This document shows, one piece after another, positions 2,598 through 62,741 of a stretch of 64,000 nucleotides of DNA. Within the stretch, counting starts at the first letter, position 1; each line of letters begins with the position of its first letter. The notes under the pieces are model-generated. The model saw only the letters and a program-made list of their open reading frames with translations, did no database searches and had not been told where the DNA came from. A program made the translations under genes and the position numbers. This DNA comes from Streptococcus mutans (GTDB taxonomy: Bacteria > Bacillota > Bacilli > Lactobacillales > Streptococcaceae). The stretch is taken from assembly GCF_006739205.1 (NCBI RefSeq), contig NZ_AP019720.1, positions 620,001 to 684,000 of the forward strand. Reading direction: 5' to 3'.

Positions 2598-5500
2598 TGT
2601 TTTTAAAAGAAATTGAAATGCAGGGATTTAAATCTTTTGCTGATAAGACCAAGGTTGAGTTCGACAGAGGAGTGACAGCCGTTGTTGGACCAAATGGTTC
2701 AGGAAAGAGTAATATTACGGAGAGTTTACGCTGGGCTTTGGGTGAGTCAAGTGCCAAGAGCCTGCGTGGCGGCAAGATGCCAGACGTGATTTTTGCAGGA
2801 ACTGAAAATCGAAAGCCACTCAATTACGCTCAAGTAACGGTTATTTTAGATAATAGCGATGCCTTTATCAAAGACGCTCAAGAGGAGATTCGCATTGAAC
2901 GCCATATTTATCGTAATGGGGACAGTGATTATCTTATTGATGGTAAAAAAGTACGCCTGCGCGATATTCACGATTTGTTTATGGATACTGGTTTGGGGCG
3001 TGATTCCTTTTCCATTATTTCTCAAGGACGTGTGGAAGAGATTTTTAATAGTAAACCAGAAGAGCGTCGTTCAATTTTTGAAGAAGCAGCCGGTGTCTTA
3101 AAATACAAAACACGTAAAAAAGAGACGCAGTCTAAGCTAACACAGACTCAGGATAATTTGGATCGGCTGGATGATATTATCTATGAACTGGAGACACAGA
3201 TAAAGCCTTTAGAACGTCAGGCAAAAACAGCCAAAGAATTTTTGGTTTTGGAAACAGAACGCAAGGAGAAACAGTTAGACTTGCTGGTCTACCAAATTCT
3301 CCATCATAAGGAAGCCTTAGTGAAAAACCAAGCTGAGCTTGAAAAAGTTAAACAAAATTTAGCAGCCTATTATCAAGAACGTGATCTATTAGAAACTAAG
3401 AATCAGACTCTAAAAGAAAAAAGGCACCAGCTTTCTCGTCAAATGGATCAAAAGCAGGCTGATCTCCTTGAAATGACACGTCTCATTAGTGATTATGAGC
3501 GTCAGATTGAACGCATTCATTTAGAGGTTAGTCAAAAGACAGAAAAGAAGCAATCTACTCAAAAAAGCCTAGAACAATTGTCAGAGCAAAAGGCTTCTCT
3601 TAAAACAGAATTAGCTCAAAAAGAAGTTGACTTAGAACAATTAGAAGAGGATCTCAAACAAAAAAATCAAGAAATTAAAAATGTCGAAACGGAATTGTCA
3701 CGTTTTGCAACAGATCCTGATCATATTATTGAAAGTTTACGAGAAGATTTTGTTAGACTCATGCAAAAAGAGGCTGATACTTCTAACCAATTGGCTGTTT
3801 TAAAAGCAGAAATGGATAGTCGAAAGCAAGAATCCGAAAGTAAAACAGCAGAAATTAAACAAGTACAAGCAGACTTAGAGAAAGCAAAAGATCGAGAACA
3901 AAGGGAATCCGCAAACTTTGAAACTGCTAAAACCAAAGTTCAAGAATTGCTAAAGGACTATCAAAAAACAGCACAGCTTGTTCAGAATTTAGAAGCTGCT
4001 TATGCTGAGCAGCAAGAGGCTATGTTTCAATTGTTGGATGATGTCAAAGACAAGAAAGCACGCCAAAGCAGTCTGAAGTCCATCTTAAAAAGCCATAGTA
4101 ATTTCTATGCAGGTGTTAGGTCTGTTCTTCAGCAGGCTGATAAAATTAAAGGTATTGTTGGCGCGGTTAGTGAACATTTAACTTTTGATAAAAAATATCA
4201 AACCGCACTTGAGATTGCCTTAGGTGCCAGCAGTCAAAATATTATTGTTGAAGATGAAGCGGCGGCCAAACGATCTATTGATTTTTTAAAGAAGAACCGT
4301 CAAGGTCGAGCAACTTTTCTTCCTTTAACAACCATTAAACCCCGTCGTTTATCTGAGTCAAATCAAAGCCTATTAACTTCCAGCCAGGGCTTTCTCGGTT
4401 TAGCACGTGATTTGGTAAGTTTTGAGCCTCGTTTGCAAACAATTTTTGGCAATTTACTGGGTGTCACAGCGATTTTTGATACGGTTGGTCATGCCAATCA
4501 GGCAGCTCGCCAGTTACGTTATCAAGTGCGTCTTGTGACATTAGATGGAACAGAGATCCGTCCCGGAGGGTCCTTTTCAGGAGGGACTAGCCGTCAAAAT
4601 AATACAACTTTTATCAAGCCAGAACTGGATCATTTGACACAAGAGCTAGCGCTTTTAGAAGAAAAACAAGTTGAGCAGGAAAGAACAGTTGAAAAGACCA
4701 AGCAGGACTTGGAAGTGAAAAAAGCAGATCTTTTAGAATTAAGGGAAAAAGGAAATCAAGCCCGATTGGCTGAGCAAAAGGCTGAGATGGAGTATCAACA
4801 ATCAGAGTCTCATTTACAAGAGCTGGTCTTGCTTTATACCCAATTAAAACAAACAAATCAGGCGGATCTTAATCGAGACTTAGAAAAAGACCAAGCACTT
4901 TTACAAGAAAAGCTGTATAAAATTGCTGATGACAAGGAAAAGCTCAATCAAGAGATTGCTCAAATCAAGGAAGATAAGGATAGTATTCAGCAAAAGACAG
5001 CTGCTTTAAGTCAACAACTCTCTTCTTTGCAACTTTCTGAGCGTGATTTGTCTAATACACAGAAATTTGAAAGAACGAATTTAAAACGTTTGGCAGAAGA
5101 ATTAGCTGAATTGGAGCAAAATGAAGTTGGTATGATGCAACTTTTAGATAGCCAAGAAGAGGATTTGGATGAAAAACGTTTACCATCGCTCAAACAGCAA
5201 TTAGCAAACGCTCAGGCTAGAAAAATAGAGAGTGACCAAGAACTTGTCCGCTACCGTTTTGAACTGGAAGACTGTGAAGCACAGCTAGAAGAGGTTGAGA
5301 CCAATCTCCTAAAAACTAATCAAAAGAATGAAGAGTTCATTCGTCAGCAAACGCAATTAGAAGCAAAAAGGGATCATGTATCCAATCAATTGCGCCGTTT
5401 TGCCAATAACTTGGCTGAAGATTATCAACTAAGCTTAGATGATGCTAAACAAGAGGCAGGACCGATTGAAAATCTAGAAGCTGCTCAAGCTCATTTAAGC

Positions 5501-8222: not shown

Positions 8223-10628
8223 ATGTTAGTAAGTTATAAATGGTTGAAAGAATTAGTTGATATTGATGTACCTAGTCACGAATTGGCTGAAAAAATGTCA
8301 ACAACAGGTATTGAAGTTGAAGGGGTAGACGTTCCAGCAGAAGGACTGTCAAAATTAGTCGTCGGTCATGTCCTTTCTTGTGAAGATGTTCCAGAAACGC
8401 ATCTTCATCTTTGTCAGGTGGATACTGGCGAGGAAGAATCTCGTCAAATCGTTTGTGGAGCACCAAATATTACAGCTGGCATTAAAGTAATTGTTGCTCT
8501 TCCGGGAGCTCGTATTGCAGATAATTATAAGATTAAAAAAGGGAAAATCCGCGGTATGGAATCTCTGGGTATGATTTGCTCTCTGCAGGAGCTTGGTTTG
8601 CCGGACAGCATTATTCCTAAGGAGTATTCAGATGGCATTCAAATTTTGCCTGAAGATGCTGTGCCGGGTGAAAGTATCTTCCCTTATTTGGACTTAGATG
8701 ATGAAATCATTGAGCTGTCTATCACACCTAACCGTGCAGATGCTTTATCCATGCGCGGTGTGGCTCATGAAGTAGCAGCGATTTATGATAAATCTGTTCA
8801 TTTTGAAGATAAAGTCTTGACTGAAAGTGATAAGAAAGCAGCTGACCTTATCAAGGTAGCCATCGCTTCTGACAAGGTTTTGACTTACAAAGCGCGTGTG
8901 GTTGAAAATGTAACCATTAAACCAAGTCCACAGTGGCTGCAAAATCTGCTTATGAATGCTGGCATTCGTCCGATTAATAATGTGGTTGACGTGACCAATT
9001 ATGTTCTTCTTTACTTTGGACAGCCTATGCATGCTTTTGATTTAGATAAGTTTGAAGGCAAGGATATTCTTGCACGTCAGGCAAAAGCTGGTGAGAAATT
9101 AGTAACACTTGATGGTGAAGCGCGTGATTTGATTGAAGAGGATCTTGTCATTACTGTAGCAGATAAACCAGTGGCACTTGCAGGTGTTATGGGTGGTGCG
9201 ACAACTGAAATTGATGCCTCTTCTAAAAATGTTGTCCTTGAAGCAGCCGTCTTTGATGGAAAATCAATTCGTAAAACAAGCAGCCGTCTTAATCTGCGTT
9301 CCGAAAGTTCTTCACGTTTTGAAAAGGGTGTTAATTACGCTGATGTTGTTAAGGCACTTGATTTTGCTGCAGCAATGCTGACGGAATTGGCAGATGGAAC
9401 AGTTCTCGCTGGTCAGGTCAGTGCAGGAGCAGTTCCGACAGATGATATTCAAGTATCCACTAGTCTGGATTATGTCAATGTTCGCTTAGGTACAGACTTA
9501 GTTTTCTCAGATATTGAAAGTGTTTTTGCTCGCCTTGGTTTTGGTCTTTCTGGCAATGACGAAAAATTCACGGTTTCTGTACCGCGTCGCCGTTGGGATA
9601 TTAGCATTCAGGCGGATTTGGTCGAAGAGATCGCCCGTATTTATGGTTATGATAAATTACCGACAACACTGCCTGAAGCAGCAGGAACAGTTGGTGAATT
9701 GACCAAGTCACAAAAATTACGTCGTAAGATAAGAAGTTTGGCTGAAGGTAGTGGTCTTTCAGAAATTATTTCCTATGCCTTGACCACGCCTGAAAAGGCA
9801 GTTGCTTTTACGCCAAATCCTAGCAAGGTGACAGAACTGATGTGGCCAATGACCGTTGAGCGTTCGGCACTGCGTCAAAATATTGTCTCTGGAATGCTAG
9901 ATACCATTGCCTATAATGTAGCACGTAAGAGCAACAATCTAGCCCTATATGAAATTGGCAAAGTATTTGAGCAAACAGCGGATCCCCAAAAAGATTTGCC
10001 TAAGGAAATAGATACTTTTGCCTTTGCTCTGACAGGTTTAGTAACTGAAAAAGACTTTCAGACAGCAGCAACCCCAGTTGATTTCTTCTATGCTAAAGGT
10101 GTTCTGGAAGCTATTCTTGCTAAGCTTGAAATCACTGTTCAATTTGTTGCGACTAAAGAAATGGCTAATATGCATCCCGGACGTACAGCTTTGATTGAAC
10201 GTGATGGTCAAGTTATCGGTTATCTTGGTCAAGTTCATCCGCAGACTGCTAAACTGTACGATATTCCAGAAACTTATGTAGCAGAAGTGAATCTTAATGC
10301 ACTGGAAGCAGCTCTTAAATCGGATTTAGTCTTTGAAGATATCACTAAATTCCCAGCTGTTTCGCGCGATATTGCCCTGCTTCTTTCAGAAAAAGTGAGT
10401 CACCAAGATATTTTGGATGCTATTGCAGCCAGCGGTGTGAAACGTCTGATCAAGGTAAAACTCTTTGATGTTTATGCCGGTGAAAAACTAGGAGTAGGTA
10501 AGAAATCAATGGCCTACAGCCTGACTTTCCAAAATCCTAATGATAATCTCACAGATGAAGAAGTTGCCAAATACATGGAAAAAATCACTTCAGCCCTAAC
10601 CGAAAAAGTTGGTGCTGAAGTGAGATAA
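8223..10628 (+). CDS. pheT: Phenylalanyl-tRNA synthetase beta subunit
   Basis: The 801-aa beta subunit provides the editing domain and tRNA anticodon binding. Domains in order are an N-terminal OB-fold tRNA-binding domain (about residues 40-150), the B3/B4 editing module (about 210-390), the B5 domain (about 405-475), the class II-like core (about 490-690) and the C-terminal ferredoxin-like anticodon-binding domain (about 705-801, ending GAEVR). Length is normal and the gene is intact. Its last 178 bp are found again at 14922-15099 with about 13 differences, flanking the Rgg/RiPP locus, so the 3' end of this copy may have been exchanged when that locus was acquired. Confidence 0.97.
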
Positions 10629-10630
10629 CG

Positions 10631-10661
10631 AAAAAATCTACCTTTAAAGGTAGATTTTTTT
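10631..10661. terminator. Bidirectional intrinsic terminator after pheT and shp
   Basis: AAAAAATCTACC / GGTAGATTTTTTT with a 6-nt loop is a perfect stem with T-runs on both strands. It can end pheT transcription (+) and shp transcription (-). Confidence 0.9.
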
Positions 10662-10680
10662 GGTATGTAAGCTAGTGAGC

Positions 10681-10749
10681 CTACCCACCGCCGATAATGA
10701 TAATTGTTTCTAATACCACTATCAAAGTCATAAAAATTTTATTTCTCAT
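10681..10749 (-). CDS. shp: Short hydrophobic peptide (SHP) pheromone precursor
   Basis: A 22-residue peptide encoded divergently from rgg and too short for ordinary ORF calling. It begins MRNKIF, has a hydrophobic middle and ends in ETIIIIGGG, the typical SHP form in which a Glu (or Asp) precedes the mature hydrophobic C-terminal 8-9 residues. GAGTGAGGAG gives a good ribosome site. SHPs are exported, matured (Eep and PptAB in other streptococci), re-imported by Opp/Ami and bound by Rgg. I recall this sequence as the S. mutans SHP1509 pheromone paired with the Rgg next to pheT. The operator at 10810-10825 and an overlapping -10 lie upstream, and the pheT terminator lies just beyond its stop. 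Confidence 0.92.
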   Translation of the reverse strand: MRNKIFMTLIVVLETIIIIGGG

Positions 10750-10777
10750 GTTTTTCTCCTCACTCACTTTTCTTATA

Positions 10778-10786
10778 TGTTATAAT
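10778..10786. promoter_or_regulatory. Overlapping back-to-back -10 boxes for rgg (+) and shp (-)
   Basis: TGTTATAAT on the + strand is an extended -10 for rgg. Its complement gives TATAAC (10779-10784), the best -10 for shp. The two promoters share the same bases, so polymerase cannot occupy both at once. Confidence 0.55.
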
Positions 10787-10809
10787 AAATTGCAATTAAC
10801 TGAATATAA

Positions 10810-10825
10810 ATCCCATATAGACAAT
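10810..10825 (-). promoter_or_regulatory. Putative Rgg operator upstream of shp
   Basis: Read on the - strand the sequence is ATTGTCTATATGGGAT. It matches 15 of 16 bases of the sequence upstream of wgkA (11703-11718), at almost the same distance from the -10 (25 versus 27 nt). It also lies in the rgg leader, 13 nt before the rgg start, so Rgg may affect its own gene. Confidence 0.7.
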
Positions 10826-10838
10826 TGAGGTACTATTG

Positions 10839-11696
10839 ATGACTGAATATGGAAAAATATTTAAAAAATTTAGAGAATCACGCGGTCTAAAAATGAAGGA
10901 AGTAGCTGGTTCAAATTTATCAACTTCACATCTTTCAAGATTTGAAAATGGAGAATCTGAGCTGACAATAAGTAAACTTATGACAGCACTGTACAAAATA
11001 AATATGCCTATTGAAGAATTTATGTATGCTGCCAATGATTTCCATCAGGATGAATTAAATGAGCTCCTTAAAGATGTGAGGGAGTGTGTTAATAATAAAG
11101 ATGTTGAACGATTAAAAGCGGTATTGATTAAGCAACAAGAGAATTTAAAAGAAGGTCGAATTTTTCACCATTTGAATGTTATTCTAGTAAAAATAAGGTT
11201 GCAAGATTTATCCGGTGAAACTTATTATAGTAAAGCAGACCTAGATTACTTAACAAATTACTTATTTAAAGTTGAATACTGGGGTTTCTATGAGCTGTTA
11301 CTTTTTACGAATACTATTGATGTTTTTAAACATGAAACTTTTATGGTTCTCTCTAGAGAGATGATGAGACGGTCAGATTTTTATAAAGAAATACCTCGAA
11401 ATCGACGTCTTATTTCACGTATGGCTCTGAATTCTTTTATAACTTGCATTGAAAGAGATAAACTGATTGATGCACTGTATTTTGAAAAACAATTAAGCAT
11501 CTGTCATTTTGATGAAACAGAAATTTATGAACGCTTGGTCTTTCATTATGCTCAAAATCTATTTGCCTATAAAAAATATAAGACGACACTTGCTATTATT
11601 GAAATAAAGAAATCAGTAGCAGCAATGAAATTGGCAGGGAGTTTGCATATTGCTGAAACCTATGAAAACCATCTTCAAAAAATTTTAGAAGGATAA
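10839..11696 (+). CDS. rgg: Rgg-family quorum-sensing transcriptional regulator
   Basis: A 285-aa cytoplasmic pheromone receptor. An N-terminal XRE-type helix-turn-helix (residues about 5-60, including LSTSHLSRFENGESELTISKL) is followed by an all-helical repeat domain (about 65-285) that binds the SHP peptide in this family. The start chosen is the ATG at 10839 with GAGG 8 nt upstream rather than the TTG one codon earlier. It is divergent from shp and immediately upstream of the RiPP operon. The expected function is SHP-dependent activation of shp and of the wgk operon through the shared 16-bp motif. I recall it as the S. mutans Rgg at SMU.1509. Confidence 0.93.
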   Translation: MTEYGKIFKKFRESRGLKMKEVAGSNLSTSHLSRFENGESELTISKLMTALYKINMPIEEFMYAANDFHQDELNELLKDVRECVNNKDVERLKAVLIKQQENLKEGRIFHHLNVILVKIRLQDLSGETYYSKADLDYLTNYLFKVEYWGFYELLLFTNTIDVFKHETFMVLSREMMRRSDFYKEIPRNRRLISRMALNSFITCIERDKLIDALYFEKQLSICHFDETEIYERLVFHYAQNLFAYKKYKTTLAIIEIKKSVAAMKLAGSLHIAETYENHLQKILEG

Positions 11697-11702
11697 TATG
11701 AA

Positions 11703-11751
11703 ATTGTGTATATGGGATAAAAAATCTCTCTTTTTGGATTTGATTTATAAT
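11703..11751 (+). promoter_or_regulatory. Rgg-dependent promoter of the RiPP operon
   Basis: The Rgg-box-like ATTGTGTATATGGGAT (11703-11718) is followed, after 27 nt, by a -10 TATAAT (11746-11751). No recognisable -35 exists at 17-nt spacing (AATCTC), as expected for an activator-dependent promoter. The RiPP precursor starts 30 nt further on. Confidence 0.7.
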
Positions 11752-11780
11752 AATTCTATCAAATCAAGGAGGTAAATACT

Positions 11781-11846
11781 ATGTTGACTAAAAAAGAGTT
11801 TAGTGTTCCTAAAACAACTAAGGTAAACTGTTGGGGTAAGCACTAG
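11781..11846 (+). CDS. wgkA: RaS-RiPP precursor peptide, WGK (tryglysin) type
   Basis: A 21-residue peptide with a strong ribosome site (AAGGAGGT). It starts MLTKKEF, has the basic stretch VPKTTK, and ends VNCWGKH. The C-terminal WGK motif defines the streptococcal radical-SAM RiPP subfamily whose product, tryglysin, is a heptapeptide with a Trp-to-Lys crosslink that inhibits other streptococci (recalled from the 2021 S. mutans quorum-sensing work). The last seven residues fit the expected core. It is followed by an attenuator-like hairpin and then the radical SAM gene, RRE protein and exporter. Gene names follow that literature and are from memory. Confidence 0.9.
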   Translation: MLTKKEFSVPKTTKVNCWGKH

Positions 11847-11856
11847 TAAAACAAGG

Positions 11857-11889
11857 TCTGTAGGCCATTGCATAGCTTACAGATTTTTT
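11857..11889 (+). terminator. Terminator/attenuator between precursor and radical SAM gene
   Basis: A 9-bp stem TCTGTAGGC / GCTTACAGA (one G-U pair, 9-nt loop) is followed by six T. It would let most transcripts end after wgkA, giving excess precursor over enzyme, with partial read-through. Confidence 0.8.
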
Positions 11890-11902
11890 AGGAGGTATTT
11901 TA

Positions 11903-13017
11903 ATGAGAGATTATTCACCATATCCGTTATTGGTTGATGTTTGTGTAACAAATCGTTGTAATTAAGTTGTTCATATTGTTCAGCAGAAGCAGGCCCTTTT
12001 GCCAGTAAAAAAGGAGAGATGTCTGTTGAGAAGCTGGATTCTATTTTCCGTGAATTAAATTTAATGGGAGTTCCGCGAGTAGGTGTTACTGGAGGTGAAC
12101 CGTTTATTAGAGATGATATATTAGACATCTTAAAGGCTTTTGATAAATATCATTTTGCTAAAGTTTTAAATACTAATGGTAACCTCATTACAGATTCTGT
12201 AGCTAAGGAATTATCTAAACTGCATTTGGATAGAATTTGTGTGACCGTGGATGGAAGTTGCTCTAAAGTTCATGATAGCCAAAGAGGTAAAGGAAGCTTT
12301 AAAAAGGCAATAGAGGGTATTAAAAATTTACAAAGGTATAATCTTCCTGTTTCTACACTTTTTACATTAGGAAGGCACAATGTAGATGATTTGATTAACA
12401 CTATTAGGTTAAACGATATGCTTAGAATTAAATATATGTCTGTAATGATTATTTGCCCAACAGGTAGAGCTAATGATGGAAGCATTCTAGCAGATAAGAA
12501 ACATTGGTATCCTGTATTTTTAGATTTAACAGAGAGATTGTCTCGTGGAGAATTTAAAGTGAAGTTTAAAATAGTTCCTCCAAATGAAAGTGATGTCTTT
12601 TGGACACATTATTTCCCACTAGCTTTTTACAACCGATTAGATTTACTTGAAAGTGTATGGCATCAAAGTCTGAACTTTAATAGTAACAAGAAAAGAGAAA
12701 TGTCTTGCCAAGCTGGAGTAAGAGCTTGTTCTATCAACCATAAAGGTGATGTTTATGGTTGTGATTTGATGAACGGCATTGATGAACTTGTAGCAGGTAA
12801 TGTAAAAGAAAAATCTTTTTATGAAATTTGGCATAATTCTTCTATATTTCATAAATTGAGAAATATTACATTTGACGATATTTCGGGGAAATGTGCTGGT
12901 TGCCCCTTACCTTGGTGTGGTGGTGGATGCAGATGCAGTGCACTGGAGTTAGATGGAACTTTGCTTGGATCTGATTTAGCATGTTTTTATGATGAAGAGG
13001 AAAGCGTATTGGTATGA
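11903..13017 (+). pseudogene. wgkB: Radical SAM/SPASM RiPP maturase, frameshifted at the 4Fe-4S motif
   Basis: The expected start is ATG 11903 with ribosome site AGGAGG. The frame gives 20 codons ending TNRCN and then TAA at 11963-11965. Shifting one frame restores the rest: with one extra T in the AATTA tract the sequence reads CNLSCSYC, a perfect CxxxCxxC radical SAM cluster, and continues to 13017 (371 aa). The C-terminal half carries a Cys-rich SPASM domain (CQAGVRAC ... CAGCPLPWCGGGCRC). An internal ATG at 12019 has GGAG nearby but would produce a protein with none of the three cluster cysteines. As sequenced the enzyme should be inactive. Either a real mutation or a sequencing error in a short A/T tract is possible. 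Its stop overlaps wgkC by ATGA. Confidence 0.9.
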
Positions 13018-13337
13018 AAAATCATTTTACAATAAAAGGGAAGAGAGATTTTGTTGTTGATAAAATTGACGATGAGTTTATAGGATATGATAGATTAGAT
13101 CTAGAGTATTATTCTTTTGATGATATAGGTGCTGAAATTTTATATTGTATTTCTAAAAACTTTTCTTTGGACAAAATCATTGAGGTCATTCAAGAAGAGT
13201 ATGATGTGACTTATGACGATTGTAAGAAAGCTATTGTCCATTTTTTAGAGGAGACACCTATATTACATATTATTTATGCAAATCTTATTAAATCAGACAT
13301 TTATTTATACCTAAAACCATTTCGGGAGGCATTATGA
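13014..13337 (+). CDS. wgkC: PqqD-like RiPP recognition element protein
   Basis: A 107-aa protein translationally coupled on both sides (ATGA overlaps with wgkB and with the transporter). The N-terminal beta-rich segment (about residues 1-35) and helical part with SFDDIGAEILYCISKNFSLDKIIEVIQEEYDVTYDDCKKAIVHFL match the PqqD/RRE winged-helix pattern, which binds the leader peptide and presents it to the radical SAM enzyme. No catalytic residues are expected. The assignment rests on this pattern and its position in the operon rather than on a profile search. Confidence 0.75.
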   Translation: MKNHFTIKGKRDFVVDKIDDEFIGYDRLDLEYYSFDDIGAEILYCISKNFSLDKIIEVIQEEYDVTYDDCKKAIVHFLEETPILHIIYANLIKSDIYLYLKPFREAL

Positions 13338-14614
13338 GTTATTCTAAAGAGGTGAACCGTTATGTTTTTCCTCTCGTTGCCACAAACCTTGTTCAAGTTT
13401 TGATTGGTCAAATTTCTCTTCATTTTGCTGTCGATAATTCTAATGCTGCCTTGTCTGGCATTTCTGTTATCCAGAATTTTCTTTTTGCATTTGGAGGTAT
13501 TCTTGGAGCCTTTAGTTTGTCGTTTAATATTAGAGGTGCCAAGGCTTTTTATAATAAAGAATACCAACGATTTAAAAATCTTTTAAAATCATCCCTGCTA
13601 ATTGATATTGGAATTGGACTGTCATTCATTCTTTTTTGTCTGGGATTGAGCAGACCTTTTTTGAAAGTTTTTTATGGTTTTGATGGTCAATTATTGGAAC
13701 TATCGACTACCTATTTCAAGATCATGTCTCCTTATATTTTATTGACCTTATTAATCTTCCTTTTTTCAAATCTTTTGAAAATTGAGAAGAAAACAAAGCC
13801 CATTTTTTGGATTGGAACCCTAAGTTCCGTGCTAGATGTCTTGTTAAACTATTACTTAGTTCCTCTTTTGGGAATTCGTGGAGCTGCTATTTCGTCTATT
13901 TTATCGCTGCTAGTCATTGTTTTAGGGTATTTCATTTTTGTAAAATCTCTTGTTTTTCAAGCGCTTCAAGAGGCTTCGACAAGTAAGTTAGAGCTTATCC
14001 GTTTTGGAATTCCTTTATCCATACAAGAAATACTGGAGAGTGTTTTATTTATCATGGCTTTCGACGCTTTCATGGGAAGACAAGGGCTACGCATTTTGTC
14101 CATCTATGCGGTAGTCAGTCAATTATTTGCAATTGTGAGAACACCTGCCTTTATGTATGCGGGTTCAATAGCAATCTTTTTGCCTGAAGCTAGGAAAAAA
14201 GAAGACGAAAAAGCATTGATTGCTACTATTTTTAGAAATAGCTACGCTGTTATATTTATATTTGCTTGTTTAGTAACAGTATTTTCAAATCCTTTTGCTC
14301 ATTTTTTGTCTGATGAAGTTATTGATAATGTGCTGCCTTTTACTTTGTACACGGTTGTGGTCATGGGAGCAACACCTCTATATGAAAGCTCTAAGATGCT
14401 TTTGCAAAGCAATGATGACGAACAATGGGTTTTAAAAATAACAAGCATTGTCAATATATTAAGTATCCTTATCTTATTAGTTCTCCAGTTAATGGGCAAG
14501 CAAACCTATCAATCTCTGTATGGCATTTATGGTTTGAGTTTAATAGTGCTTAGTATTCTTTTCATAAAAAGAAATAGTGAGAAGAGAGTATCATCACGTA
14601 AAATGACAATGTAA
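13334..14614 (+). CDS. wgkD: MATE-family exporter of the RiPP operon
   Basis: A 426-aa polytopic membrane protein with about 12 hydrophobic segments and the MATE layout of two six-helix halves. It starts by ATGA overlap with the RRE gene and ends the operon just before an intrinsic terminator. MATE proteins exchange drugs or small products for H+ or Na+; here export of the modified peptide (and possibly self-protection) is the natural inference. No ABC transporter or peptidase is present, so leader cleavage probably relies on a protease encoded elsewhere. Confidence 0.85.
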   Translation: MSYSKEVNRYVFPLVATNLVQVLIGQISLHFAVDNSNAALSGISVIQNFLFAFGGILGAFSLSFNIRGAKAFYNKEYQRFKNLLKSSLLIDIGIGLSFILFCLGLSRPFLKVFYGFDGQLLELSTTYFKIMSPYILLTLLIFLFSNLLKIEKKTKPIFWIGTLSSVLDVLLNYYLVPLLGIRGAAISSILSLLVIVLGYFIFVKSLVFQALQEASTSKLELIRFGIPLSIQEILESVLFIMAFDAFMGRQGLRILSIYAVVSQLFAIVRTPAFMYAGSIAIFLPEARKKEDEKALIATIFRNSYAVIFIFACLVTVFSNPFAHFLSDEVIDNVLPFTLYTVVVMGATPLYESSKMLLQSNDDEQWVLKITSIVNILSILILLVLQLMGKQTYQSLYGIYGLSLIVLSILFIKRNSEKRVSSRKMTM

Positions 14615-14644
14615 GACTTGTAGGGAGTAATACAAGTCTTTTTT
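14613..14644 (+). terminator. Intrinsic terminator of the RiPP operon
   Basis: AAGACTTGTA / TACAAGTCTT, a perfect 10-bp stem with an 8-nt loop, overlaps the wgkD stop and runs into a T tract. Confidence 0.92.
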
Positions 14645-14768
14645 AGAACTTTAATGAATAAAAGTTTTTTGACAGTTTACACTAGTTTCACCTAAAAAAT
14701 ATTATCGATTTTTCAAACGAAACGTCGCAGTAATCTTTGGTGGCTACATTAGGAGGTGATCTAAGGCC

Positions 14769-14843
14769 TTGAAAATCCCTTTGAAGATTGACAAATCAGT
14801 TAATCAATCTTCTTCTGCCTACGGTGGTACCTATAGTTCTTAG
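14769..14843 (+). other. Candidate 24-aa peptide ORF (TTG start)
   Basis: A near-perfect Shine-Dalgarno AGGAGGTGAT (14751-14760) precedes a TTG-initiated frame of 24 codons. The predicted peptide has a basic N-terminal half (KIPLKIDKS) and a Ser/Gly/Tyr-rich end, SSSAYGGTYSS, resembling a RiPP leader-core layout. The spacing (about 11 nt) is longish, the start codon is weak and no adjacent maturation enzyme exists. A GACC/GGTC hairpin follows. It may be a remnant of another peptide gene in the island or pure chance. Confidence 0.3.
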
Positions 14844-14921
14844 TGACCTTACGGTCGCTTTCGATAAGCTAATGCTTTAGGCAATAAGTAGGAAATCTAT
14901 GAATATGGGTTCTTAATATCT

Positions 14922-15099
14922 CAAAGTAAAACTCTTTGACGTTTATGCTGGTGAAAAATTGGGACAAGGTAAGAAATCAATGGCCTACAGCCTGACTTTC
15001 CAAAATCCTAATGATAATCTCACAGATGAAGAAGTTGCCAAATACATGGAAAAAATCACCAAAGCCCTAACCGAAAAAATTGGTGCAGAAGTGAGGTAA
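14922..15099 (+). repeat. Duplicated 3' end of pheT (59 codons incl. stop)
   Basis: This stretch aligns without gaps to pheT 10451-10628, 178 bp each, with about 13 substitutions counted by eye and an identical run of roughly 90 bp in the middle. It keeps the pheT frame and stop and encodes the last 58 residues with a few changes (LGVG to [12 protein letters not shown] to TKALTEKI). It has no start codon and is not a gene. With the intact pheT it bounds the shp-rgg-wgk locus, marking where the insertion recombined. Confidence 0.93.
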
Positions 15100-15401
15100 A
15101 AATTGACAGCTGATAAGCTTATAGCCGTCTGTTTCTTATTTTTAAACAGATAACTTAGCAAGGACAGTGCCCATCAATGATGTTTGCTGTTAGTTCAATA
15201 TGAAAAGAAAATTAATTTCTGTAAACGTCGTTTGTCAAGCCTATAAAAGACCTGTGTTTGTGAAAACAATTTCCCGTTTTAAAGGGATGATAGTCATTTA
15301 GTTTATCCTTTATGACTTTGTTAGCGCGTCTTACCGTACGTTTTTGTGACTAACTTTGTCAGTTTAATTATCACCCTTCAACCCTCCCAGTTGTTAAAAC
15401 T
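15100..15401. other. Non-coding gap after the pheT duplicate
   Basis: About 300 bp without a supportable gene. It holds one hairpin, TCTGTTT / AAACAGA (15128-15150), possibly the old pheT-distal terminator. The rest is AT-rich with no convincing frame or regulatory site. Confidence 0.6.
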
Positions 15402-15450
15402 GTCTGCGGCTTGCTGCCTTGTCTTACAATCAAACCAAAAGACTAGAATA
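15402..15450. repeat. Dispersed repeat copy A (GTCTG-GCTTGCTGCC-GTC...AAAAGACTA)
   Basis: The string GTCTGCGGCTTGCTGCCTTG, followed by AAAAGACTAGAATA, recurs with small changes at 35361-35403. Shared words are GTCTG, GCTTGCTGCCT, GTC and AAAAGACTA. It sits directly before the ribosome site of the next gene. Confidence 0.5.
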
Positions 15451-15462
15451 AGGAGAAAGGTT

Positions 15463-15789
15463 ATGACACATGTTGTATCTGAAATTTTTAAAGATGGCCC
15501 GGTAGACAGGTTTGGTTTACGAGGGGATCCTGTTTTTTGGAACTATTTAGAAAAGCATTTTCAAAAGGTAGCTATGCCATATTCCGAAAGAAAATTAGAA
15601 GAGGATATAAGAACGATCTATCAAGACTTAACTGGAAAAGAATTTAGAATGGGTGAGATGGCTCTTGTTAAAGACTTTATAAGTGAATCCGGCGGCATGT
15701 CATCAGGATGGCTTAGTGATGATTTTTGGCTTAAATCAGCTATACCGCTTCTGAAAAAACGATTGGCAAAATGGAATGAAACTTTATAA
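15463..15789 (+). CDS. Hypothetical protein, 108 aa
   Basis: The start is the ATG after AGGAGAAAGGTT; an upstream frame extension from 15346 lacks a ribosome site and crosses a repeat. The product is soluble and mixed alpha in character, with no signal peptide. It contains the stretch RFGLRGDPVFWNYLEKHF and a C-terminal MSSGWLSDDFWLKSAIPLL. I do not recognise the family. It stands alone between the pheT duplicate and the SemiSWEET gene, about 170 bp before the latter. Confidence 0.7.
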   Translation: MTHVVSEIFKDGPVDRFGLRGDPVFWNYLEKHFQKVAMPYSERKLEEDIRTIYQDLTGKEFRMGEMALVKDFISESGGMSSGWLSDDFWLKSAIPLLKKRLAKWNETL

Positions 15790-61753: not shown

Positions 61754-62350
61754 ATGACTGAAGAACAATTTTTTGGCAAGGAATTAGCAGCATGCAAGAT
61801 TGATGCTATTCCTGGAATGATTGAATTTGATATTCCAGTCCACGGCGATAACCGCGGTTGGTTTAAAGAAAATTTTCAAAAGGAAAAAATGGTGCCGCTA
61901 GGTTTTCCAGAAAGCTTCTTTGCAGAAGGCAAATTGCAAAATAATGTTAGTTTTTCCCGTAAAAATGTTTTACGCGGTCTGCATGCAGAACCATGGGATA
62001 AATACATTTCAGTAGCGGACGAGGGAAGGGTTCTCGGTTCTTGGGTTGATCTGCGTGAAGGAGATAGTTTTGGTCATGTTTACCAAGCAGTTATTGATGC
62101 TTCCAAGGGTATCTTTGTTCCCCGCGGTGTGGCTAATGGTTTCCAAGTCTTATCTGACAAGGTTTCTTACAGTTATCTCGTTAATGACTACTGGGCGCTT
62201 GAACTCAAACCAAAATACGCTTTCGTCAACTATGCTGATCCAACATTAGGAATTGAATGGGAAAATCTAGCAGAAGCGCAAGTCTCAGAAGCGGATAAAA
62301 ACCACCCATTGCTCAAAGATGTTAAACCATTAAAAGCAGAAGATTTGTGA
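61754..62350 (+). CDS. rmlC: dTDP-4-dehydrorhamnose 3,5-epimerase
   Basis: A 198-aa cupin-fold epimerase, third step of dTDP-rhamnose synthesis. Visible are the NRGWFKENFQ segment, NVSFSRKNVLRGLHAEPWDKY with catalytic His, and VPRGVANGFQVLSD. It is of the longer streptococcal type (about 200 aa). ATG 61754 has GGAGAAGC upstream at good spacing; a TTG 15 nt earlier is inside rmlA and less likely. Its stop TGA overlaps the ATG of a decayed gene. Confidence 0.95.
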   Translation: MTEEQFFGKELAACKIDAIPGMIEFDIPVHGDNRGWFKENFQKEKMVPLGFPESFFAEGKLQNNVSFSRKNVLRGLHAEPWDKYISVADEGRVLGSWVDLREGDSFGHVYQAVIDASKGIFVPRGVANGFQVLSDKVSYSYLVNDYWALELKPKYAFVNYADPTLGIEWENLAEAQVSEADKNHPLLKDVKPLKAEDL

Positions 62351-62741
62351 TGTTTGAAATCTTCTTAGAGATTGCAAAAGAGCTCAATCAGATGTGAACT
62401 ACATCGCTATTAATGGGTACTGTTGGTCTGGAAGATCGGACAGGCAGATTATGGCAGGCGCGTGTTGTAGATATTCATGTACCCAGTAACCCTCGTGGTT
62501 GGGAGGTGCCTGATGAGGAACAGATTTACCGAACGGTTGAGTTGACCGCCATGAGCATGAATTTTAGAAAAACGGTCTTTCTGTAGAATTTGGTGGGCTC
62601 CATTTCCTGCCTAGTTTTGCAGGCCTTGCCTTAGAAGAATTAGAAGAACTAGAGATTAATAAGGACTCTTATCGAGCTGATAAAATCAATCGCAAAGACT
62701 TTGCAAAAATTGATTACTTGAAAAAAGTACTAGAGAAATAA
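62350..62741 (+). pseudogene. Decayed gene between rmlC and rmlB (possible nucleotidyltransferase-like)
   Basis: From ATG 62350, overlapping the rmlC stop, a frame reads MFEIFLEIAKELNQM and meets TGA at 62395. The same frame continues LLMGTVGLEDRTGRLW ... VDIHVPSNPRGWEVPDEEQIY to TAG at 62584. One frame over, a short overlap leads into KNGLSVEFGGLHFLPSFAGL ... DKINRKDFAKIDYL, ending TAA 62739. The pieces look like one protein broken by a stop and a frameshift or deletion. The DIH(V)P and GxS/GxV patterns recall small streptococcal nucleotidyltransferase-like proteins, but this is from memory only. Confidence 0.7.

Follow-up and report, generated by a model that had tools for sequence, protein, structure and literature searches.

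A frameshifted wgkB in the tryglysin B locus of a Streptococcus mutans genome, with pheromone signalling probably retained

The window analysed here is a 64,000-nucleotide stretch of the Streptococcus mutans genome (assembly GCF_006739205.1, contig NZ_AP019720.1, positions 620,001 to 684,000). Judged from its sequence, the block at 10681-14614 is the published S. mutans pdrA/shp-wgkABCD (wgk, tryglysin B) locus, through which this agent of tooth decay produces a small antimicrobial peptide under quorum-sensing control; both the system and the peptide are already known. An earlier note on the same DNA had called the block a working operon for a WGK-type ribosomally synthesized and post-translationally modified peptide made by a radical S-adenosylmethionine enzyme (RaS-RiPP; tryglysin), controlled by a short hydrophobic peptide (SHP) and an Rgg regulator. 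The family was right according to the NCBIfam matches, but the unit appeared damaged, as the maturase gene wgkB was frameshifted. The strain is likely to keep SHP signalling and sensing and the expression of the precursor, the RiPP recognition element (RRE) protein and the exporter, and to make no tryglysin B.

The reading frame of wgkB from 11903 was open for just 20 codons and ended at a TAA inside the CxxxCxxC motif, past its first cysteine. The rest of the motif was in another frame, whose listed open reading frame starts at the ATG at 12019. The intact radical SAM/SPASM enzyme of the earlier note was thus not found, and since wgkB was frameshifted inside CxxxCxxC, no full-length enzyme could be read. 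The 20-aa piece was identical to residues 1-20 of P0001, an intact 371-aa WgkB, and the 332-aa remainder showed 2 differences from its residues 40-371. The motif cysteines of P0001 are residues 19, 23, and 26 in one frame; of these, the first is encoded by the short piece, and neither piece covers residues 23 and 26. The remainder possessed the SPASM domain and the larger part of the radical SAM domain, without CxxxCxxC. Neither piece is predicted to be able to hold the radical SAM [4Fe-4S] cluster, and the product from the internal ATG should be catalytically dead because it lacks the cluster ligands. The features of the locus were as follows.

10749-10681, minus strand: shp, a 22-codon frame for the 22-aa pheromone precursor MRNKIFMTLIVVLETIIIIGGG; the final 9 residues are the published active SHP (PMC8092268 Table 2).
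10810-10826, minus strand: PdrA box of the shp promoter, AATTGTCTATATGGGAT; the consensus is from PMC8092268.
10839-11696, plus strand: pdrA (Rgg), ATG at 10839, 285 aa, divergent from shp; Pfam Rgg_C.
11702-11718, plus strand: PdrA box of the wgkA promoter, AATTGTGTATATGGGAT.
11781-11846, plus strand: wgkA, the 21-aa precursor MLTKKEFSVPKTTKVNCWGKH with the core VNCWGKH; NCBIfam NF050036 (tryglysin RiPP), 46.5 bits, cut-off 34.
11853-11887, plus strand: hairpin between wgkA and wgkB with a T run at its 3' end, a probable partial terminator.
11903-11965, plus strand: N-terminal piece of wgkB, 20 aa, MRDYSPYPLLVDVCVTNRCN, with the TAA stop after the first Cys of CxxxCxxC.
12019-13017, plus strand: remainder of wgkB in the other frame, 332 aa, equal to residues 40-371; NF050035 (WgkB), 656 bits, cut-off 650.
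13014-13337, plus strand: wgkC, PqqD-like RRE protein, 107 aa; NF050069, 159 bits, cut-off 110; Pfam PqqD.
13334-14614, plus strand: wgkD, MATE exporter, 426 aa; NF052396, 565 bits, cut-off 510; Pfam MatE.
14921-15099, plus strand: partial second pheT 3' end, 179 bp, 93% identical to 10450-10628; in place it corresponds to the published pseudogene SMU_1505c (PMC8092268).

WgkA, the 332-aa WgkB piece, WgkC, and WgkD each exceeded the curated cut-off of a named NCBIfam tryglysin family, so the gene set is not a chance assembly. The WgkB piece also matched Pfam Radical_SAM and SPASM, and the Rgg was 99% identical to a protein that its source names an Rgg/GadR/MutR regulator of S. mutans. The SHP had no match in NCBIfam or Pfam. 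Of the parts that define tryglysin (WGK) RaS-RiPP loci, the precursor with a C-terminal VNxWGKH, the PqqD-like WgkC, and the MATE WgkD were all present, and a whole WgkB with CxxxCxxC in one frame was absent. The block is accordingly classed as a damaged copy of the tryglysin locus and not as another kind of locus. Quorum-sensing control by PdrA and SHP was indicated by the Rgg, the divergent SHP, and a 17-nt box at both promoters. Most of the earlier description was borne out: the SHP of 22 aa ending in ETIIIIGGG was found on the minus strand, and the divergent Rgg, the 21-aa precursor ending in VNCWGKH, the RRE protein, and the exporter were all recovered, with ATGA overlaps at 13014 (wgkB/wgkC) and 13334 (wgkC/wgkD). 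The proposed homology search placed the 21-aa frame in NF050036 above its cut-off. The proposed comparison with the published tryglysin A and B cores was also run, and VNCWGKH was identical to tryglysin B. The note was correct that the system type is not new, while its view of the peptide as a variant has to be dropped, the core and the pheromone being those of strain UA159.

The locus of UA159 has been described (Rued et al. 2021, PMC8092268), and the comparison with it rests on the published description rather than on UA159 DNA. The gene order, the SHP ending ETIIIIGGG, the core VNCWGKH, the PdrA box at both promoters, and the pheT-like pseudogene SMU_1505c behind wgkD were alike. In contrast, wgkB of UA159 was treated as one gene, and its co-expression with wgkA and wgkC in Escherichia coli gave an active enzyme, whereas wgkB of the window was in two frames. 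No report of such a frameshift was found in the titles and abstract beginnings of the tryglysin, wgkB, and SMU_1508c literature, supplements lying outside that search. In the main texts of PMC8092268 and PMC12322106 the word "frameshift" did not occur, and in PMC13361665 its sole occurrence was in a reference title on a different gene.

The main alternative, to which we give a small but appreciable chance, is that the frameshift arose from an error of sequencing or assembly, in which case the wgk operon would be intact and tryglysin B would be made as in the published model. An error would fit the single frame change in a gene that is 99% identical elsewhere, and the locus has been listed as conserved in 19 strains at >99% identity (PMC8092268). 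However, the genome is listed as 100% complete in one contig, and frame changes were rare in it. In the frame screen, 310 S. ferus frames of at least 150 aa (from 400 kb of genome G042) were compared with 1.2 Mb of this genome. Seven of the 137 orthologues past the thresholds were flagged: five for stops within about 35 residues of the alignment end, one as an otherwise decayed gene, and one as wgkB, which leaves frame changes in 2 of 137 testable genes. The reverse screen took 846 frames, of which 135 could be tested; all 5 that were flagged had stops close to the end of the alignment, and no frame change was seen. The otherwise decayed gene, at 2350-2732 of L102 (G000:C1 682350-682732; about 62350-62732 of the window), is related to a 161-aa S. 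ferus frame and contained two stops as well as its frame change.

A further argument against an error came from protein clusters. P0002 is a separate 332-aa WgkB cluster with 42 member sequences, which starts at the same internal ATG and has different residues: 3 of its 332 positions differed from the WgkB of the window, and one SPASM-domain cysteine was lost. The intact P0001 stands for 437 member sequences; such counts are blurred by metagenome fragments and were not converted to a frequency or a test. As controls, the WgkD clusters close to full length comprised 109 and 1 members, and a truncated one at 94% identity had 1, among the 8000 candidates scored for sharing most words. The PdrA clusters had 22 and 102 members, with none truncated at 90% identity or above among the best 120 of 254. 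The CxxxCxxC motif was absent from the first 60 residues in 20 of 92 WgkB relatives (P0001-P0092; P0093-P0106 of the 106 matches were left out as distant). This count was not used as evidence of loss; it probably includes contig-edge fragments, and one of the 20, P0072, is a longer protein. Separately, P0055 was a 200-aa WgkB-like protein, 83% identical and without the N-terminal half, which stands for 326 member sequences.

Several points weigh against a real loss of the maturase. The members of P0002 may be cut or mis-started proteins rather than products of a frameshifted gene. The size of P0001 suggests that the intact form of WgkB is the commoner one. Moreover, wgkB was otherwise undamaged: its 332 residues differ from P0001 at just the 2 positions, as would be expected of an error or of a loss that happened very recently. 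The break is known from the assembly, in which a single-base error is possible. This genome was also the only one of S. mutans among those compared. On balance, a frameshifted wgkB remains the likely reading.

Two other explanations take the break as real. That the 332-aa product has taken on a new function without catalysis, for example binding or escort of the peptide together with WgkC, is very unlikely. The frame is long and open and the P0002 cluster is similar, but the cluster-binding cysteines are missing, and the additional loss of a SPASM-domain cysteine in P0002 looks like decay. Programmed ribosomal frameshifting, which would join both frames and give WgkB at a low, regulated level, is fitted by the clean break and the open remainder of the gene; it was rejected as very unlikely, because P0001 and the three related loci L002, L003, and L004 do not need it, their frame being unbroken through the region, and no X-XXY-YYZ slippery heptamer was seen at the break by eye, the only inspection made.

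Relatives of the locus were few, and each is a single assembly in which errors are possible too. The cut-off of NF050035 was exceeded in 3 of 284 Streptococcus genomes, namely this genome (G000), S. ferus (G042), and S. gallolyticus BI02 (G045), while any match to the model was found in 57 of 284. Among 395 genomes sampled from the order, it was again exceeded in 3 (G000, G045, and Enterococcus caccae, G530). Of 335 Streptococcaceae genomes, 4 carried a relative of wgkB with an E value of 1e-60 or lower, and at E 1e-60 a query with P0016 detected no other genome in a sample of 398 from the phylum. Only S. ferus among those 4 combined a 21-aa precursor with wgkB in one frame. G621, from another genus of the family, was the one besides this genome with a broken wgkB, a point in favour of a real break. 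Its precursor looked broken as well, with MLNKK at 3562 and VWGK (WGK at 3612) in different frames. At L152 3562-6021 of G621, the WgkB relative was interrupted by an internal stop and lacked the SPASM part; wgkC- and wgkD-like genes followed it. In addition, wgk operons about 92% identical to the S. ferus one have been described in four S. salivarius genomes (PMC12322106).

The locus of S. ferus DSM 20646 (L002; tryglysin A) had the same gene set and a 21-aa precursor, with identities to the window of 88% for the WgkB piece, 78% for WgkC, 55% for WgkD, and 65% for the Rgg. It differed in its core VNSWGKH and in having wgkB in one frame. Furthermore, wgk was not beside pheT in G042, taken as S. 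ferus, where wgkB lies at about 95 kb and pheT at about 213 kb. The locus of E. caccae ATCC BAA-1240 (L004) possessed a 21-aa precursor, the hairpin, a one-frame WgkB, WgkC, and a MATE protein in the same order. Unlike the window, it had the core VAAWGKH and identities of 69% for the WgkB piece, 43% for WgkC, and 31% for WgkD, and its Rgg-like match was just 22% identical and on the opposite strand. The E. caccae precursor (L004 5749-5814) was MEKKKEFKKIRFANVAAWGKH, and this species is not one of the streptococci to which the available portions of PMC13361665 ascribe tryglysins. The locus of S. gallolyticus BI02 (L003) had the Rgg, a one-frame WgkB of 371 aa, WgkC, and WgkD in the same order. 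It differed from the others in its precursor at 1585-1743, where VNSWGKN was reached without a stop and the frame comprised 52 aa, so that the product is uncertain. This 52-aa frame crossed the hairpin and passed the wgkB start at 1709.

The exact PdrA box occurred at only two sites (10810-10826 and 11702-11718) in the whole 2,018,796-base genome. In UA159, the box AATTGTXTATATGGGAT was reported at both the shp and the wgk promoters (PMC8092268). In 4 of 4 loci folded (the window, L002, L003, and L004), a hairpin was predicted to separate the WGK codons from wgkB, at -14.3 to -22.9 kcal/mol and without a shuffle control; in L003 it sat within the prolonged precursor frame. A scan for consensus terminators over 10600-15500 gave a single terminator-like site, within wgkD, and did not report the wgkA-wgkB hairpin. 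Rfam gave no match at gathering scores across the window. A hairpin that is T-rich at its 3' end and lies ahead of wgkB would fit a lowering of the maturase relative to the precursor.

As for its surroundings, the wgk block lies between pheT (8223-10628) and a 179-bp direct repeat of the pheT 3' end (10450-10628 and 14921-15099, 93% identical). In G273, the closest genome by pheT (93%), 170 bases separate pheT from a stretch matching 15470-15787 of the window. No match to the wgk block was found in the 5.7 kb of G273 examined, and this genome was not among the 57 of 284 with an NF050035 match. The block was therefore probably gained at this site after the split from G273, or lost cleanly in G273. 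At the 13 sites that differ between the pheT copies, the agreement with five outgroups was mosaic, so that either copy may be the native one and the transfer may have gone in either direction. Recombination between the pheT repeats could remove the entire block while pheT stays at full length. An origin from a mobile element was also considered and set aside, as no carrier was found in the viral contig, plasmid, and phage collections searched: 8 stretches of viral contigs matched the pattern with none confirmed as a WgkB relative, 176 plasmid records had a WgkB match, all below 60% identity, and a phage search with 10630-15099 gave no match.

In the proposed working of the locus, SHP would be secreted, re-imported, and bound by PdrA, and shp and wgkABCD would be switched on from the two boxes. 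We infer this circuit because the peptide and the boxes are identical to those of UA159, where the addition of SHP was shown to induce shp and wgk via PdrA (PMC8092268). The same study showed by expression in E. coli that WgkB with WgkC crosslinks W-G-K of VNCWGKH, and export of the heptapeptide was presumed. In the present genome, maturation would be lost while signalling and expression are likely retained, since the boxes, the SHP, the Rgg, WgkA, WgkC, and WgkD were intact.

The authors of PMC8092268 did not detect tryglysin B natively in S. mutans. The wgkB frameshift would not explain that result, because wgkB of UA159 was active in E. coli. They also found that purified tryglysins inhibit their own producer species and did not see SHP-induced immunity, so the loss of the maturase could pay. 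Tentatively, S. mutans may carry a segregating "mute" allele of this widely conserved locus, with which a cell would send and hear SHP, make the precursor, the RRE protein, and the MATE exporter, and escape self-inhibitory tryglysin by losing the maturase; we consider this possible and less likely than not. The S. mutans tryglysin locus was counted as conserved in 19 strains at >99% identity by nucleotide BLAST (PMC8092268 Table 1 and methods), and the available sections of that paper mention no reading-frame check. If the mute allele exists, surveys of conservation by percent identity would miss such non-producers. If the frameshift is real, this signal-positive, product-negative morph would offer a null for the peptide that arose naturally, and a case in which social cheating in the oral microbiome could be tested.

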